From Sunxiuqinia dokdonensis (lineage in GTDB: Bacteria > Bacteroidota > Bacteroidia > Bacteroidales > Prolixibacteraceae), in the NCBI RefSeq assembly GCF_001270965.1, contig NZ_LGIA01000151.1, positions 1 through 64,000 of the forward strand: a stretch of 64,000 nt of DNA. The letters are read 5' to 3'. A model generated the notes under the pieces. The model was not told the DNA's origin. It saw only the letters and a program-made list of their open reading frames with translations, and made no database searches. Positions 55,750-63,186 of the stretch are shown piece by piece. The stretch's first letter is position 1. Each line of letters opens with the position of its first letter. Position numbers and translations under genes: made by a program.

Positions 55750-56649
55750 ATGAGAAAAAGTAAAAAGGCAATAAAAATAGCGGTTACAGTGATTTTGAGC
55801 TGTATGATGTGTTCCTTTAGTGCGCAGGAAGAGTGGACCCGTTTGCTTGACAAAGATTTGACAGCATGGGCAACCTACCTCAGCTACAGACATCAAACCG
55901 GCTATAACGGGAAGGTTCCTCAAGATGAAGATGGGAAACCTGTAAAGCCAATCGGTTATAATAAGAAAGGACAAAATGTTTTTTCGGTAATTGAACAAAA
56001 CGGTGTGTCGGTTCTAAGGATATCGGGGGAAATCTACGGATGCGTTTTTACAAAACAGGATTTTGAAAATTACCACCTGAAAATGAAGGTAAAATGGGGA
56101 ACCAAAAAATGGGATCCGAGGTTGAATGAACCGATGGACTCGGGGATACTATACCATTCGCGGGGAGAGGCCGGAGTGGATTACTGGCGGTCATGGATGT
56201 TGGCCCAGGAATTTCAGATAATGGAAGGCGGTTTTGGTGATTACTGGGCTATTGCCAATAGTGGCTGCCACATAAAAATGAAAGATCCCGGTAGCAGAAG
56301 CGATATGGGCATCTTTGATCCTGACGGAACTGATACTGCGATGGGGGCAGGCGGAAACAGGAGTGGGTTTGTTCAGCACAGCGCCGATTACGAAAAACCA
56401 GGGGAATGGAACGAGGTGGAGCTGATCTGTTTTGAAGATAAAAGTATCCATATCATTAACGGCCATGCAGTGATGGCCCTTTCACAATCGGTTTACCGGG
56501 ATGGGGAAACACTCAAACCGCTGGTAAAAGGTAAGATCCAGCTACAAAGCGAGGCTGCAGAGGTCTTCTATAAGGATATTGAAATCAGGAAGATCAAAGG
56601 AATACCACATCAATTCAAAACACTATTTCAGTCACTATCTAACCTGTAA
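55750..56649 (+). CDS. DUF1080 (3-keto-disaccharide hydrolase-like) secreted protein
   Basis: This 299-residue protein has a signal peptide (about 1-27, ending FSAQEEW) followed by one DUF1080 domain in a concanavalin-like fold (WTRLLDKDLTAWATYL, SGILYHSRGEAG, EWNEVELICFEDKSIHIINGH). Family members are described as 3-keto-disaccharide hydrolases or as glycan-binding proteins. It lies 9 bases after and 3 bases before GH28-fold genes, so it is co-expressed with pectin-type enzymes. Its exact substrate is not readable. Confidence 0.75.
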   Translation: MRKSKKAIKIAVTVILSCMMCSFSAQEEWTRLLDKDLTAWATYLSYRHQTGYNGKVPQDEDGKPVKPIGYNKKGQNVFSVIEQNGVSVLRISGEIYGCVFTKQDFENYHLKMKVKWGTKKWDPRLNEPMDSGILYHSRGEAGVDYWRSWMLAQEFQIMEGGFGDYWAIANSGCHIKMKDPGSRSDMGIFDPDGTDTAMGAGGNRSGFVQHSADYEKPGEWNEVELICFEDKSIHIINGHAVMALSQSVYRDGETLKPLVKGKIQLQSEAAEVFYKDIEIRKIKGIPHQFKTLFQSLSNL

Positions 56650-56652
56650 TTT

Positions 56653-58131
56653 ATGAAAAGCAGTACCTGTATACGCAACATGTTGTTTATGCTCCTTCTT
56701 CTGAGCGGGCAAGTTTATGCTGGCGGGAAATCCTACCTGATTTACCCTGCCCCGGCAGGTGAAGTACTGAATGAGGACTATCGGGTGACAATTGAAGGTG
56801 AAAGTGTTCCGGTATATTCGGTTAAAGTGGCGCCAAAAGATCAGCAATTGCGATGGAAAGCAATGGATGACAAAAAAAATTCAGCCGATTATTTCGAAGT
56901 GGCGGCATTCGCCTATTTTGATTTGAAAGATGAGGTCACCATTGAAGTAACTAACCATGAACATATCCACTCAGTTAAAATACTGCCTTCGTCTGCCGGG
57001 ATTGTCCCTCATGTTGAAGGCAAAACCGTTTCATTTAAAGTGGCTTCACCAGTTAATCTCACGATCGAAATTAATGGCGAATGGGTTCGCTCACTGCACC
57101 TGTTTGCCAATGCTTTTGAGGAGAATGTCCCAGAAGCGGATGATCCGGATGTCATTTATTTCGGACCCGGAATCCACCACGTCAGCAATATGGTTGTTGG
57201 CGATAACAAAACAGTTTATGTTGCGGGCGGAGCCATTGTCCGCGGAGTCATTAAACCGGAAGAACCATATACTATCAGCGGCTATAGCGGGCTCCGGCTT
57301 TATACGCCTACCTTCCACCTTCAGGGCAAAAATATTACTTTCAGGGGACGTGGAATTATTGATGGCAGCCTTTGCACCACCCACTCACGGTTCATGATTT
57401 TTGTGGAAGGTGCTGATATAAACCTAGAAGGCGTTATTTTGAGGGATGCCAGTCACTGGACCATCCCGGTGAGAAGATCAGACCGGGTACACATCGATAA
57501 TTTAAAGCTTCTTGGTTATCGGGCAAATTCTGATGGTATTGATATCTGCAACAGTCGCGAAGTGTTGGTTGAGAACTGTTTCATCCGGACACTGGATGAT
57601 CTGGTAGTCGTCAAATCGGATGGAGGAGAAGGTGAAACGAAAAATATTGTAACCCGAAAATGTGTTTTATGGAACGAGGTCGCACACGCTTTGAGCCTTG
57701 GTGCCGAAATCAGTGAAGACATTGACAATGTTCTGTTTACTGATTGTGATATCATTCATGACAAAGGAAGAGAGTGGACGCTCAGAATTTTTCATGCCGA
57801 TGCAGCGTTAGTCAAAAATGTACGCTTCGAGAATATCCGTATTGAAGAAACACAAAGATTTATCTCTTTGTGGATCAACAAGGCAGTGTGGACCCGCGAT
57901 AAAGAACGGGGGCATATTCAGGGGGTGGTGTTTAAAGACATATGGGCCACAGGTGATTCGCTCATTGTAGAACTGCTGGGGTTTGACGAGGAGCACCTGA
58001 TAGAAGATGTGCTTTTTGAAAATGTTTTCTTCAACCAGGAAGTCCTGACAACGGACGATATCCACAGTAACTCTTATGTAAGGAGAGTTTTTGTCCGTCC
58101 GCAACCTGAAAAAAAAACAATAAAAAAATAA
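56653..58131 (+). CDS. GH28-like beta-helix glycosidase
   Basis: This 492-residue secreted protein has a signal peptide (about 1-24), a beta-sandwich N-terminal domain (about 28-160) and a beta-helix (about 165-480). GH28-type residues are better kept than in the previous paralogue: NSDGID near 292 and LDD near 314. The third and fourth motifs read EVAHALSLG and LRIFH rather than GHG and RIK. It is probably a galacturonidase or related pectinase of distinct specificity. It overlaps no neighbour; gaps are 3 and 5 bases. Confidence 0.7.
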   Translation: MKSSTCIRNMLFMLLLLSGQVYAGGKSYLIYPAPAGEVLNEDYRVTIEGESVPVYSVKVAPKDQQLRWKAMDDKKNSADYFEVAAFAYFDLKDEVTIEVTNHEHIHSVKILPSSAGIVPHVEGKTVSFKVASPVNLTIEINGEWVRSLHLFANAFEENVPEADDPDVIYFGPGIHHVSNMVVGDNKTVYVAGGAIVRGVIKPEEPYTISGYSGLRLYTPTFHLQGKNITFRGRGIIDGSLCTTHSRFMIFVEGADINLEGVILRDASHWTIPVRRSDRVHIDNLKLLGYRANSDGIDICNSREVLVENCFIRTLDDLVVVKSDGGEGETKNIVTRKCVLWNEVAHALSLGAEISEDIDNVLFTDCDIIHDKGREWTLRIFHADAALVKNVRFENIRIEETQRFISLWINKAVWTRDKERGHIQGVVFKDIWATGDSLIVELLGFDEEHLIEDVLFENVFFNQEVLTTDDIHSNSYVRRVFVRPQPEKKTIKK

Positions 58132-58136
58132 CAGAT

Positions 58137-58808
58137 ATGAAATTCAATTTTTTCTGCAGGCTTTTTATTCTAATTGCATTTATTTTTTCCAATGTCCACA
58201 TCAACGCACAGTCCTACCCGTTTGGAGAGCAGATTTCCCGTTTCATGCAGCAAGACAGTATTTTTTTTCCCGAGAAAGGCCAGATACTTTTTATTGGTAG
58301 TTCCACTTTTACCCTCTGGCACGACGTGGCCGGTTATTTCCCCGGTTATCCGATTATCAATCGTGGTTTTGGCGGATCAGCGCTTCCCGATCTTATCTAT
58401 TATGCCAATGATGTTATCCTGCCTTACCAGCCCAAACAAATTGTTATCTATTGTGGTGAAAATGATTTCGCTCGGGAAGAATCTTTATCTGCTGAAGTTG
58501 TTGCCGACCGGTTTGAACGGTTATTTGCTGAAATTAGGGCTCATCTTCCCGAAACGCATGTCGCTTTCGTGTCAATGAAGCCTTCCCCAAGCCGGGTGCA
58601 CTTGATGGGAAAATTTGAGGTAGCAAATAAATTGATCGAATCCTTTTTAGCTGAAAAGAAAAATACGGCATTTATCGACATTTACCATCCCATGCTGAAC
58701 GAAGACGGCACGCCTAAACAGGAAATTTTCAAGGAAGACAATTTACACATGAATCAGAAAGGATATCAGCTTTGGCAGCCGATCATTGAACCGCATTTGT
58801 TAAAATAG
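58137..58808 (+). CDS. SGNH/GDSL-type esterase
   Basis: This 223-residue secreted hydrolase has a signal peptide (about 1-24). Block I is ILFIGSSTFTLW with the catalytic Ser near 60, block II has the Gly in NRGFGGS, block III is GENDF, and the C-terminal D-x-x-H is in EDNLHMNQKGY. SGNH enzymes in pectin PULs commonly remove acetyl or methyl esters, and that is the expected role here. It lies 5 bases after the GH28-like gene. Confidence 0.85.
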   Translation: MKFNFFCRLFILIAFIFSNVHINAQSYPFGEQISRFMQQDSIFFPEKGQILFIGSSTFTLWHDVAGYFPGYPIINRGFGGSALPDLIYYANDVILPYQPKQIVIYCGENDFAREESLSAEVVADRFERLFAEIRAHLPETHVAFVSMKPSPSRVHLMGKFEVANKLIESFLAEKKNTAFIDIYHPMLNEDGTPKQEIFKEDNLHMNQKGYQLWQPIIEPHLLK

Positions 58809-58983
58809 GATGAAAGGAGAATGGAGAATCAGCATCGGAACAACTAATTTTGCTGATACCACAAATTCATCCAAAAAGATTATACCATGAAATGGACATA
58901 AGGGCAAAAGCTCATATCATCCGAAGATGCATAAATGGCTATTCCATGAGTACGTTTAGAATTCAACAATTTAAAAACGATTT

Positions 58984-61242
58984 ATGCGAATGAAACTGAT
59001 TTTAAAAATTGGTGCTTTAGTTTTGCCAATAGTAGCGCTATCCTACTGTTCAAAACCCCAGCAAGAACATGTAAACAGCAAACAGCCTGTCGACTATGTG
59101 AACCCGTACATGGGCAACATCAGCCACTTGCTGGTGCCCACCTTTCCGACCATCCATCTGCCAAACAGCCTGCTTCGGGTTTATCCCGAACGAAGGGATT
59201 ATACTGAGGTTGAACTGAACGGTCTTCCGCTGGTGGTGACCAGCCACCGCGGCAGTTCAGCTTTCAACTTAAGTCCTTTCCAAGGTGAAGGAAACGAACT
59301 GAGACCAATCATTTCATACAGTTATGACCAGGAAAAACTGACCCCCTATTCCTATTCAGTTTATTTGGATGAGCAGGACATCCAAGTTGATTTTGCTTTG
59401 TCGCATCAATCGGCAGCTTATGAAATTCAATTTGAAAAAGAAGCCCCGGTTTACCTGATATTGAATTCCCGGAACGGCGCGATGGCCTGGGACGGGAAAG
59501 CCATCAGCGGTTACCAGTTGATCGAAAACAACACGAAAGTGTATTTATACATGGTGCCGGAAGATTTACCCCAGAAGGTTTCCACGCTCAAAGGAGGCAA
59601 TTTGGCAGAAGCGGCCAATGCCGAAGGACGCGATGCCTGCCTAGTTTTGAATTACCCACAGGAAACCGGGAAAGTCAGCTTGCGTTATGGCATTTCATTT
59701 ATTGATGAAAAACAGGCCAAAGCCAACCTGGAACGCGAAGTGGCGGGCAAAACGGTAGCTGACTTGCAGGCATCTGGACGCGAAACCTGGAACAAGGCTT
59801 TGGGGAAAATCAGCATCGGGGGTGGAACCGACGATCAGCAAACTGTATTTTACACATCGCTTTACCGCTGCTACGAGCGCCCAGTTTGTATCTCGGAAGA
59901 CGGCCGCTACTACAGCGCTTTCGACGGACAGGTTCACAACGACAACGGCCGCCCGTTTTACACCGACGACTGGATCTGGGATTCTTATCGGGCCCACCAT
60001 CCGCTGCGCATTTTAATTGATCCTCAAACAGAAGAAGACATCCTGCATTCATTTGTACTGATGGCCGGCCAGATGGAAAACAACTGGTGGCCCACTTTCC
60101 CTGAAATCACAGGTGACAGCCGCCGGATGAACTCCAACCATGGCGTGGCTTCGGTGATTGATGCCTGGCGGAAAGGCCTGCGTGGTTTTGATCTGGAAAA
60201 AGCTTATCAGGCCTGTAAGGGCGCCATTATGGAAAAAACACTGGCACCGTGGTCGGGGAAACCTGCCGGAGAGCTTGATGCTTTTTACAAAGAACATGGC
60301 TATATCCCGGCACTCCGTGAAGGCGAAGAGGAAACCATTCCCGAAGTACATCCGTTCGAACGCCGCCAGCCCGTTGCCGTTACTTTGGGAACCGCATACG
60401 ACCAATGGTGTTTGGCCCAAATCGCCGAAGAGCTTGGGAAAACCGAAGAAGCGCAATATTTTGACAAAGCTTCGTTAAACTACCAGAACCTGTTCAATCC
60501 CGAAACCAAATTCTTTCATCCCAAAGACAGTAACGGGAAGTTTATAGAACCTTTTGATTACCGCTTTTCCGGCGGAATGGGAGCCCGCGGGTTCTATGGC
60601 GAAAACAATGCCTGGATTTATCGCTGGGACGTTCAGCACAACATTCCGGATTTGATCAACTTAATGGGGGGAAAAGAAGAGTTTGTCAAAAACCTGGACG
60701 CCATGTTCACCGAGCCGCTGGGAAGGGGAAAATATGCTTTTTACGCCCAGTTGCCCGACCACACCGGCAATGTCGGCCAGTTTTCGATGGCCAATGAACC
60801 GTCGCTGCACATCCCATATTTGTACAATTATGCGGGTCAACCGTGGAAAACGCAGAAACGCCTGCGCAAGCTGCTCGATGAGTGGTTCCGCAACGACCTG
60901 ATGGGCGTTCCGGGTGATGAAGACGGTGGAGGCATATCGTCTTTCGTCGTGTTCTCGGCAATGGGGTTTTACCCCGTTACACCCGGAAACCCGGAATATT
61001 CTATCGGCAGTCCCTTATTTGAAAAGATTTCTGTTGATCTTGGAAACGGTAAAACCTTCGAAATAGAAGCCAAAAATGCTTCGCCTGAAAACAAGTACAT
61101 CCAGTCGGCGACACTAACTGGTCAAACACTGAATCAACCCTCTATTTCACATGAAGCGGTTGCCGCCGGCGGCAAGCTGGTGCTGGAGATGGGGCCAAAA
61201 GCAAATAAGGATTGGGGGATCAAGCATGTACATAAGGAATGA
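58984..61242 (+). CDS. GH92-family glycosidase, lipoprotein
   Basis: This 752-residue lipoprotein has Cys22 (ALSYCSKPQ). It has the GH92 two-domain layout: an N-terminal beta-sandwich (about 35-270) and an (alpha/alpha)6 barrel (about 290-740). Family motifs are YTDDWIWDSYRAHHPL, GFYGENNAWIYRWDVQHN, YLYNYAGQPWKTQ and VFSAMGFYPVTPG. The usual GNDDCG loop reads GDEDGGG. GH92 enzymes are calcium-dependent alpha-mannosidases, so its place among pectin enzymes is unexpected. It is G+C-richer by eye than susC of the same locus. A 175-base gap separates it from the previous gene, so it may be a later addition. Confidence 0.82.
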   Translation: MRMKLILKIGALVLPIVALSYCSKPQQEHVNSKQPVDYVNPYMGNISHLLVPTFPTIHLPNSLLRVYPERRDYTEVELNGLPLVVTSHRGSSAFNLSPFQGEGNELRPIISYSYDQEKLTPYSYSVYLDEQDIQVDFALSHQSAAYEIQFEKEAPVYLILNSRNGAMAWDGKAISGYQLIENNTKVYLYMVPEDLPQKVSTLKGGNLAEAANAEGRDACLVLNYPQETGKVSLRYGISFIDEKQAKANLEREVAGKTVADLQASGRETWNKALGKISIGGGTDDQQTVFYTSLYRCYERPVCISEDGRYYSAFDGQVHNDNGRPFYTDDWIWDSYRAHHPLRILIDPQTEEDILHSFVLMAGQMENNWWPTFPEITGDSRRMNSNHGVASVIDAWRKGLRGFDLEKAYQACKGAIMEKTLAPWSGKPAGELDAFYKEHGYIPALREGEEETIPEVHPFERRQPVAVTLGTAYDQWCLAQIAEELGKTEEAQYFDKASLNYQNLFNPETKFFHPKDSNGKFIEPFDYRFSGGMGARGFYGENNAWIYRWDVQHNIPDLINLMGGKEEFVKNLDAMFTEPLGRGKYAFYAQLPDHTGNVGQFSMANEPSLHIPYLYNYAGQPWKTQKRLRKLLDEWFRNDLMGVPGDEDGGGISSFVVFSAMGFYPVTPGNPEYSIGSPLFEKISVDLGNGKTFEIEAKNASPENKYIQSATLTGQTLNQPSISHEAVAAGGKLVLEMGPKANKDWGIKHVHKE

Positions 61243-61358: not shown

Positions 61359-62186
61359 ATGGAAACATATTGTCAGATTGCTACTGACCTTGAGAATGAT
61401 TTATCCGGATTAGGTGAAATCTCGGATAAATTCCCGGAGCAAATAGAGTATGCTACCGGTCGTTGTAAACTGGCACTGGATCATCTGCATGAGCTGGTGC
61501 TAAAAAAGGGATTTCCTGATAAGAAATCGGAAATTCTGTTTTTTAAGAAAATAAAACCATCGGTCTGCAGCAAGCTTATTTACTATCAGGCTGTTTTCGG
61601 TCTGGAAAGTATTCGTATGGAGCTTGACACCAAAAGCGCCAGAAAATATTTTAGACGGGAGCAAAAAAGGATTCTGAAGTACATGAAAGATCACAAGTTG
61701 AAAGTCCAGTACTACCGTTGCGGTCACCGTCATCTTGATGAAAAATATTTCCTGCGGGATAATAAAGAAATTCCTCTGGAAGTGAAGGATAGTCACTCAC
61801 TGATGGACGAGGACTTCTTTTCCTGGCATGACCACACGTTTTCCACCATCATGGCGAACGAAATGCTCCTTGAATACATCAAAAACGAAATGAAAAAACT
61901 GGACCATTCTCAGGGAGATAATTTGCCCCAATCGAACCTCAAATGGACTGGAAACAAAATAGACGTACAGGAACTCCTCTATGCCATCTATTTTGATGGC
62001 TCTGTTAATGATGGCAAAGCCACTATCAAAGAATTGGCTGAAGCCTTCGAGTGGATGTTTAACATTGAGCTACAGGAGCATATTTATGGAACTCCGGAGC
62101 AATTAGTTAAGAGATCTGATCCCGTCAAGTACCTCACTCACTTGATGACTATACTGAAACGAAGAATATACAATAAGCTTCGATGA
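61359..62186 (+). CDS. rteC: RteC-family regulator of element excision
   Basis: This 275-residue protein matches the RteC family. Features include an N-terminal helical region, the central YYRCGHRHLDEKYFLR segment, and a C-terminal winged-helix-like part (VQELLYAIYFDGSVNDGKATIKELAEAFEWMFNIEL). In CTnDOT, RteC activates the excision operon. Its presence 117 bases after the GH92 gene shows that mobile-element genes resume directly after the PUL. No RteA/RteB two-component genes are in the window. Confidence 0.85.
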   Translation: METYCQIATDLENDLSGLGEISDKFPEQIEYATGRCKLALDHLHELVLKKGFPDKKSEILFFKKIKPSVCSKLIYYQAVFGLESIRMELDTKSARKYFRREQKRILKYMKDHKLKVQYYRCGHRHLDEKYFLRDNKEIPLEVKDSHSLMDEDFFSWHDHTFSTIMANEMLLEYIKNEMKKLDHSQGDNLPQSNLKWTGNKIDVQELLYAIYFDGSVNDGKATIKELAEAFEWMFNIELQEHIYGTPEQLVKRSDPVKYLTHLMTILKRRIYNKLR

Positions 62187-62243
62187 CCGACTAAAAGATT
62201 ATTTGAATCCGTAATACCATTAACCCAATTTAAGGATGTTTAC

Positions 62244-62480
62244 TATCTTTGCGAAAGATAAGACCGATAGAATCTCATCTGGGTAAGAGATCCGGATGAA
62301 CTGACAATATAGAAAGCGTTGGCTTTTTATTCGTGATTCCTAAAACCGCCAGTTTTAATTTAAGTCACAGGAATAAAGAGTCCGATGTCTGCGCCTTTGG
62401 CGTGGCTCGGATTTGACTGTGACTAGGACCCTGGCGGTTCCGTGGAAGCACCAAGTCCGCGGTCACGCCTCTTTTTTATT
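62244..62480 (+). ncRNA. Highly structured RNA with its own -7 box
   Basis: This non-coding gap of 331 bases starts with an exact -7 box (TATCTTTG, 62244-62251; no clear -33). Nested helices follow: 62344-62352 with 62431-62439 (9 bp), 62363-62370 with 62417-62424 (8 bp), 62379-62385 with 62407-62413 (7 bp, one G-U) and 62391-62395 with 62399-62403 (5 bp, loop TTT). A second hairpin, CCGTGG 62440-62445 with CCGCGG 62457-62462, stacks next to it and a T run follows at 62471. Upstream, AAAGC/GCTTT (62313-62326) with TTTTT could act as an early terminator. It ends 38 bases before a small ORF, so it may be a leader or a free RNA. Family not recognised. Confidence 0.7.
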
Positions 62481-62517
62481 CGAATTCTGATAGCTTACCA
62501 TCATAAAAACAACTACC

Positions 62518-62760
62518 ATGTCAACAATTGATACTTCAAAAATCCGCCAGAATGCCGATTTGGTCAATCCCATGTCTAAATGCCCGTTTGGAGAACCAGT
62601 TGCTGATTGCCCTTTTATCCCCTACTATGAGATGAAAAATGAACGAAAGCAAGTGGCACAAATCGAAGCAATCCCACAAAAGAAACTGGATGAAATGCGC
62701 CAATTTCACAGGGGATGTATGCGGGAATTAATGAAAAGCCGGAAAGCCAATTTCCTATAA
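62518..62760 (+). CDS. Small Cys-containing protein of unknown function
   Basis: This 80-residue protein was not recognised. It has three Cys, two of them in CPFGEPVADCPF near residues 22-31, then a helical C-terminal part rich in Lys, Arg and Met (RQFHRGCMRELMKSRK). It lies 38 bases after the structured RNA and 130 bases before an HTH gene, so it may be translated from the RNA-led transcript. The sequence is compositionally normal for a real small gene. Confidence 0.6.
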   Translation: MSTIDTSKIRQNADLVNPMSKCPFGEPVADCPFIPYYEMKNERKQVAQIEAIPQKKLDEMRQFHRGCMRELMKSRKANFL

Positions 62761-62889
62761 TCTGGATCCACACTTGCTATTTGGTTTAACCATATAAAAC
62801 CCAACCTCAGTTTATATAGGTAATAGTTTTGTTTGAATCGTTGCAATTTTGAAGCAATTTCAAAATCAACCATTCAAAATTAAATTGTT

Positions 62890-63186
62890 ATGCCTGCAGA
62901 AATTGTTACAACTGACGATCTCCGGGAATTCAAAGTCGAACTGCTCCGGGAATTCAAAAGATTGCTAAAGGAACATCACGGAGAACCTTCCAAACGATGG
63001 CTCAAATCCTATGAAGTTAAGGAGCTTCTCGGCGTTTCATCCGGTAAACTTCAACAGATGCGTGTCAATGGAAACCTGCCTTTCACCAAGATAGGGGGAA
63101 TGATCTTCTATGATTACGCAGATATACGCAAAATGCTGGAAGAGAACCAAACGAAGAATCATTCCTCTTTCAGTTCTTTCAGATGA
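62890..63186 (+). CDS. Helix-turn-helix DNA-binding protein (Xis/MerR-like)
   Basis: This 98-residue protein has an N-terminal coiled helix (about 8-33) and a winged HTH of the excisionase/HTH_17 type (about 39-88: SYEVKELLGVSSGKLQQMRVNGNLPFTKIGGMIFYDYADIRKML). Such proteins act as recombination directionality factors or regulators on Bacteroidota elements. Its position after rteC supports an excision role. Its stop overlaps the next start by 4 bases (ATGA). Confidence 0.78.
   Translation: MPAEIVTTDDLREFKVELLREFKRLLKEHHGEPSKRWLKSYEVKELLGVSSGKLQQMRVNGNLPFTKIGGMIFYDYADIRKMLEENQTKNHSSFSSFR

Follow-up and report, generated by a model that had tools for sequence, protein, structure and literature searches.

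The structured RNA near the end of the window (the whole stretch of 64,000 nucleotides of Sunxiuqinia dokdonensis DNA analysed here) is one copy of an RNA family that is common to many Bacteroidota and has no entry in Rfam. We consider it likely, with a probability of about 70%, that the RNA acts as a 5′ leader of about 220 nt that would make transcription of the following gene conditional.

In the mechanism that we propose, transcription would begin at the leader's own promoter, and the RNA would fold into a long arm (P1-P2-P3), the tip of which would be closed by a hairpin, P4. The 3′ tail, emerging just before a U run, would be able to compete for the middle strand of P4. Pairing of the tail would place a GC-rich helix (the T helix) directly before the U run and polymerase would be released; as long as P4 holds, transcription would read through into the gene, typically about 50 nt downstream, which in the window would be the gene for an 80-aa C-C-H-C protein (p80). 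Some signal, be it a metabolite, a protein or another RNA, would tip the balance, perhaps from a binding site in the conserved P1/P2/P5 region. What the sequences themselves show is a conserved fold, both helices, the promoter box, the U run, the co-oriented gene and the box-poor gap behind the RNA; a terminating role of the tail helix, an antiterminating one of P4 and a signal that decides between them are what we infer from these. The features of the window copy and its neighbours are listed here.

61359-62186, + strand: rteC, upstream neighbour, outside the leader (Pfam PF09357, E 7e-55)
62244-62251, + strand: -7 promoter box of the leader, TATCTTTG, at the same place in rteC-type copies
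62275-62299, + strand: 5′ hairpin PB, with covarying pairs in 14 rteC-type copies, from which it is known; outside the core model
62308-62475, + strand: leader RNA core according to covariance model R1 (159.3 bits, E 4.5e-29, the window copy being part of the training set)
62309-62330, + strand: P0, a hairpin with an AGCGTTnGCT-type sequence, then a U-rich stretch
62333-62340 with 62444-62451, + strand: P1, 7 of 8 pairs, covarying
62345-62352 with 62431-62438, + strand: P2, 8 pairs; 97.5% of cells paired and both-side changes in 8 of 8 pairs (66 model-fitted rows)
62363-62370 with 62417-62424, + strand: P3, 8 pairs; 95.4% of cells paired and both-side changes in 9 of 9 model pairs
5′ strand within 62387-62395, 3′ (middle) strand 62399-62407, + strand: P4, apical hairpin, proposed antiterminator
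62399-62407 (middle strand) with 62461-62469 (3′ tail), + strand: T helix, proposed terminator stem, exclusive with P4
62426-62428 with 62439-62441, + strand: P5, whose loop is the 3′ strand of P2
62472-62477, + strand: U run directly 3′ of the tail, proposed termination point
62518-62760, + strand: p80, 80-aa ORF putatively served by the leader; invariant C22 P23 C31 P32 F33 H64 C67 (24 sequences including the window's)
62890-63186, + strand: HTH gene, the first after the module (Pfam HTH_17)

Fold of the window copy

The + strand of 62244-62480 folds with a minimum free energy of -85.1 kcal/mol, compared to -61.1 +/- 4.3 kcal/mol for dinucleotide shuffles (z -5.6, with 0 of 200 shuffles as good), while the minus strand gives a z of -3.0. 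An earlier note on this DNA had described an unassigned structured RNA here, with four nested helices, an exact -7 box and a flanking repeat, in a gap without ORFs. The four helices are indeed present in the window, among them one of 9 bp (62344-62352/62431-62439), and the one given as 7 bp has 7 of 8 pairs. The outer 5-bp helix (62262-62266/62460-62464), however, is absent from the consensus of 14 copies and has probably arisen by chance in the window copy. No ORF of at least 50 aa overlaps 62244-62480, and the -7 box is genuine: an ATCTTTG or ATATTTG box occupies this place in 13 of 14 rteC-type copies including that of the window, the remaining copy (L012) being cut off by a contig end. The repeat fared less well. 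TTTTTATTCG does occur twice in the window copy, but of 117 copies, just 7 have TTTTTATTC close to the 5′ end of the core and 5 have it behind the U run, so that the repeat is no feature of the family. Within the core, P2 and P5 overlap in the fashion of a pseudoknot; P5 pairs as GGA/TCC in the window and mostly as GGT/ACC (GGY/RCC) in other copies.

The RNA also remains without an assignment in Rfam 15. No match at gathering level was found in the window, and a permissive scan of 62150-62540 (E up to 10) returned a single snoRNA-type match at chance level (15 bits, 62151-62237), which lies outside the core. Likewise, no Rfam match (E up to 5) covered the RNA in 20 distant loci.

Homologs, covariation, and spread of the family

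A search by DNA similarity of 199 genomes, including the window's own, gave matches in 10 genomes and at 16 loci, 14 of which are real copies; the other two, L010 and L011, were short chance matches and were discarded. Among the similar sequences was a second copy in the window's own genome, on another contig and with 77% identity. All 14 rteC-type copies are followed by the same small ORF (p80), and 13 of them follow a full-length rteC, while the fourteenth, L012, sits at a contig end. In the 13 copies that follow rteC, the -7 box ends 220-230 nt before the T run does. A MAFFT alignment of the 14 copies yielded 54 pairs with RNAalifold, 25 of which showed changes on both sides. The tail helix called by RNAalifold in the model-fitted alignment described below (helix 8, 76.6% paired) was weak, and the T helix was taken instead.

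A covariance model of the core, R1 (167 positions, 40 pairs), extended the family considerably. In a class-wide draw of 395 genomes, 72 had a match (60 of the 339 genomes of good quality), as did 45 of 140 genomes of the host's bacterial family and 28 of 296 genomes sampled across the phylum, where 26 of the 28 carriers belong to the class; the three draws overlap, and each contains the window's genome. A genome may carry up to 6 copies. In a model-fitted alignment of 66 rows, 93.1% of cells were paired and 36 of the 40 pairs had changes on both sides, and the covariation score was 0.63, against 0.23 for shuffled alignments and at most 0.10 for slid partners; this count takes in one antisense row (L015, + strand, E 4e-4). 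Compensatory changes, for which the earlier note had advised a covariance search, are thus abundant. For P5, 25 both-side cells were counted against a shuffled mean of 5.9, and 27 of 500 shuffles reached its number of changed pairs. G-U pairs far outnumber A-C mismatches, both in the tail helix (97 to 3) and in the 37 other pairs (244 to 20, with L015 omitted), indicating that it is the + strand that acts as RNA.

A search of a genome collection with an exact pattern, which recovers just 18 of 117 known copies, gave at least 116 stretches, and the covariance model confirmed 114 of 116 (78 of 80 and 36 of 36). Carriers among the matches listed include Flavobacterium, Cellulophaga, Tenacibaculum, Leeuwenhoekiella, Polaribacter, Formosa, Salegentibacter, Pedobacter, and Siphonobacter, as well as Alistipes, Rikenella, Odoribacter, Tannerella, Millionella, Sunxiuqinia, Mariniphaga, and Draconibacterium. 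Three of the matches listed bear labels from outside Bacteroidetes: one from Chlorobiota and one from Ignavibacteriales, both confirmed by the model, and one from Uhrbacteria, which was not. Plasmids contained no DNA match to the window copy and no match to p80, and a single exact pattern, which recovers just 18 of 117 known copies, did not occur in viral contigs.

Some copies occur in tandem, about 1.6 kb apart in L135 (3021-4798) and about 1.9 kb apart in L195 (433-2520); in the former, each copy has its own gene behind it. Others lie within about 1 kb of a contig end (G000:C146:359, G000:C193:701, and G197:C6:299, with G197:C10 near both ends), which may reflect flanking repeats or simply short contigs.

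Position relative to genes and promoters

The neighborhoods of 117 copies were derived from mechanically called ORFs, and orientation was counted for the 94 copies that are not beside rteC. The nearest upstream ORF was on the + strand in 43 of these, on the - strand in 47 and missing in 4, whereas the nearest downstream ORF was co-oriented with the RNA in 84 and opposite in 10. The same was seen for 72 further distinct copies, taken from 80 listed exact-pattern loci, with a downstream ORF on the + strand in 59 of 63 and an upstream one in 30 of 67. The 84 co-oriented genes begin close behind the RNA, at 35-58 nt in 40 cases and at 20-100 nt in 56, with 22 at more than 150 nt. Genes that we take to encode TonB-receptor-type proteins start about 200-700 nt behind it (228-679 nt for L026, L034, and L044).

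Promoters were called by match to a consensus only. By this measure, 93 of 117 copies have TAnnTTTG in the 130 nt that precede the core, against 10.2 expected from mononucleotide shuffles, while the gap between RNA and gene contained it in 1 of 64 cases against 1.1 expected; in the second set of copies, it was found upstream in 53 of 71 and in the gap in 2 of 34. At the 3′ end, a T run of at least 5 was found in 94 of 117 copies, compared to 24 of 234 control windows, a difference to which selection contributes in part, as the last positions of R1 include part of the U run; the other 23 of 117 copies lack such a run. A strand bias that is confined to the downstream side, close spacing, and a promoter box that precedes the RNA but is not enriched in the gap are what would be expected of a cis-regulatory leader and, as far as sequence can tell, identify the RNA as a 5′ leader.

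A stretch similar to TTTGCGATTCTTCATA was seen between the promoter region and the core of L026, L034, and L044, and also of L019, L024, and L040, which belong to several genera.

Two helices that share a strand

The most telling feature of the RNA was absent from the earlier note: a helix, 62399-62407/62461-62469, that competes with P4 for its middle strand. In each of the first 65 copies, the middle strand and the 3′ tail can pair over 7-11 bp, and a P4 of 6-11 bp is possible as well. As this search picks the best pairing in each copy, the helices were recounted on 100 copies that MAFFT had aligned, without regard to structure, from P4 to the T run. In this alignment, 94.7% of the cells of the T helix were paired and 7 of its 8 pairs showed changes on both sides. 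Its both-side cells numbered 39, against a shuffled mean of 5.1 and at most 11 for slid versions, which were 37.9-64.4% paired; its covariation was modest, with a score of 0.28 against 0.19 shuffled. P4 had 95.0% of its cells paired, with 15 both-side cells against a shuffled mean of 2.7. At least 7 of the 8 tail pairs were kept in 93 of 100 copies, and at least 6 of the 7 pairs of P4 in 90 of 100. In L046, L093, L094, and L107, a C of the middle strand has changed to G and both of its partners have changed to C. All four belong to one bacterial family, so that this is perhaps a single event.

The median energies of the tail duplex and of P4 are -15.3 and -11.9 kcal/mol and hence not far apart. 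Scrambled tails gave a median of -6.7 kcal/mol for the tail duplex, and tails swapped between copies gave -12.9 kcal/mol; swapped tails thus pair almost as well, suggesting that the strands are conserved in sequence and not just in their complementarity. Once P1-P3 have formed, the T helix becomes a pseudoknot, the cost of which is ignored in these duplex energies. Two mutually exclusive helices, one terminator-like and one antiterminator-like, are both conserved, as is expected of attenuators and riboswitches, and a T helix followed by a U run and opposed by P4 would carry the marks of a conditional terminator.

Genes behind the leader

The first genes downstream of the RNA are diverse, and no common pathway was found among them. 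They include what we take, from their sequences, to be lipoproteins, other secreted proteins and TonB-receptor-type proteins, and presumably also CheY-like regulators (behind L093, L094, and L107, from three genera of one bacterial family) and sigma-factor-like proteins (behind L092 and L108). A Pfam scan of 105 of 130 neighbor ORFs pointed to no common function among the 25 of 84 families listed, with matches not assigned to genes; the Plug domain was found in 5 of the 105. A hydrophobic N-terminus was predicted for 52 of 84 first downstream genes, 17 of 90 upstream genes and 28 of 61 second downstream genes (p 0.06). As the second downstream gene is similar in this respect, and as start codons were chosen differently for each group, we attach no weight to this feature.

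The rteC locus in the window

The window copy lies between rteC and the HTH gene, and its location on a mobile element, proposed in the earlier note, was borne out by CTnDOT-type transfer genes further along the contig, beyond the end of the window (DUF4134, TraG P-loop, TraM, DUF4138, and a coupling protein). The suggestion that the RNA might regulate the 80-residue ORF also gained support. In the host's bacterial family, 36 of 40 strong matches to p80 had the RNA 28-56 nt upstream and 4 did not, although the search profile was built from RNA-linked copies; among the weaker matches, the RNA was found upstream in 1 of 22, at 71 nt. In the class draw, p80 occurred in 2 of 295 genomes, one of which is the window's own, and is rare there outside the host's family. 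The protein itself had no match in Pfam or NCBIfam, and its model, predicted to be helical with a pLDDT of 89, had no fold match in the PDB. Its invariant residues make a metal site plausible.

The link with rteC is looser. Among 74 rteC matches of at least about 560 nt in the host's bacterial family, 34 had the RNA 88-163 nt downstream and 40 lacked it, and 52 of 86 RNA matches in this family were not beside a full-length rteC match. Of 30 rteC loci, 8 contained the RNA, all 8 together with p80, while L278 had p80 without the RNA. In 7 rteC loci with neither RNA nor p80, much the same block, as judged by eye, precedes a close homolog of the HTH gene. Leader and p80 thus look like a module inserted between rteC and the HTH and tra genes. 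Control of excision by the RNA, the other role proposed in the earlier note, is not supported, since the HTH upstream block exists without RNA and p80. A CTnDOT-type control RNA would be associated with rteC and would control excision or transfer, and the family shows neither trait.

The HTH gene probably has a promoter region of its own. The gap between p80 and this gene contains TAGTTTTG in the window, but no strict TAnnTTTG was present in the 18 of 18 copies in which both genes were found (out of 23 rteC-type copies), so that the HTH gene may in part be cotranscribed with p80.

The HTH upstream block (62761-62889 in the window) looks similar in L256, L257, L272, L273, L279, L280, and L281, with or without the RNA module, and contains CACCCAACTTGGG-like repeats, which are possible regulator sites. 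A GH32 and a cellulase-type gene lie beside the second rteC-linked copy (L078 889-3773), and the ORFs that precede rteC in the window (55750-61242) are carbohydrate-related by appearance.

Alternative explanations

The same data bear on other readings of the RNA. It might be an independent small RNA that acts in trans and carries its own promoter and terminator; its neighbor would then be incidental and use another type of promoter. Such an RNA would be in keeping with the promoter box, the U run, and the stable fold, as well as with the 10 of 94 copies whose nearest gene is not co-oriented (L022 and L046 among them). We nevertheless regard this as unlikely, given that the strand bias exists only downstream (84 of 94 and 59 of 63, against 43 to 47 upstream), that 40 of 84 genes start at 35-58 nt, and that the gap has no excess of promoter boxes (1 of 64). 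Still less probable, in our view, is a leader whose target is translation or the stability of the mRNA, or one onto which an elongation factor or RNA-binding protein is loaded, with the tail helix as a structural pseudoknot. The tail helix would be pseudoknotted if P1-P3 stay formed, the overlap of P2 and P5 is pseudoknot-like, and a general factor would suit very diverse downstream genes; however, in 94 of 117 copies a U run follows immediately on the conserved tail, which precedes the start codon instead of covering it. A DNA-level mobile or repeat element without RNA function, such as a hairpin transposon end or a recombination site, might explain why a genome can have up to 6 copies, why some lie near contig ends, and why one is on a conjugative element. 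Its orientation to the downstream gene, the promoter box, and the strand-specific G-U pairs (244 against 20 A-C) make this highly improbable.

The reading that we prefer, a leader that makes transcription of the following gene conditional, has points against it as well. The nearest downstream ORF is on the opposite strand in 10 of 94 and 4 of 63 copies, and a pseudoknot is an unusual shape for a terminator, which counts against termination. The 22 genes that start beyond 150 nt, the 23 copies without a T run of at least 5, the 4 strong p80 matches without the RNA and the good pairing of swapped tails weigh against it too. The lack of a shared function among the downstream genes would be odd for a metabolite riboswitch, and a shared switch ahead of unrelated genes implies a general signal. 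A more specific version is tentative, and we would give it somewhat less than even odds: that the family is an undescribed, signal-sensing class of Bacteroidota leaders, in which a pseudoknotted terminator controls a wide range of genes, most of them with cell-surface or regulatory functions, and that a conjugative element has recruited such a leader to govern its own small protein of metal-binding type.

Novelty and comparison with known systems

To our knowledge, few cis-regulatory RNAs are known in Bacteroidota, and the family would offer a model for conditional termination in this phylum. It would place a single type of leader ahead of lipoproteins, secreted proteins, TonB-receptor-type proteins, regulators, and a conjugative-element protein, and it names a conserved small C-C-H-C protein on such an element as being, as we propose, under a leader's control.

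The family is absent from Rfam 15, and we found no earlier description of it. A full-text search, covering the main text of mostly open-access papers, gave no description of the leader, nor is there one in the available portions of PMC9723704, PMC8040213, PMC11109978, PMC6429828, and PMC2864571. As PMC8040213 reports thousands of candidate RNAs, the leader may have been listed before as an unnamed candidate. Rfp18, a small RNA of Flavobacterium, acts on protease mRNAs by pairing according to the available text of PMC9723704; it is likewise a strongly folded RNA that is conserved in Flavobacterium, and it is set apart from the leader by description only, so that the two may be identical.

Like attenuating leaders and riboswitches, the RNA has its own promoter and two mutually exclusive helices that share a strand, the later of which stands before a U run and then a gene. 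Unlike the known examples, it is not in Rfam 15 and has no shared pathway visible downstream, and its terminator strand finds its partner at the tip of a long arm that is itself conserved. Riboswitches of the GEMM/c-di-GMP type control a diverse regulon that includes secreted and regulatory genes and mobile elements. The leader resembles them in its diverse regulon and its presence on a mobile element, but differs in having no Rfam match, a comparison made through Rfam scans only. RteR is a short, trans-acting small RNA that represses transfer of CTnDOT. Both are RNA regulators on a Bacteroidota conjugative element with rteC, but the RNA in the window appears to be a leader, and over half of the copies known from the bacterial family are found away from rteC.
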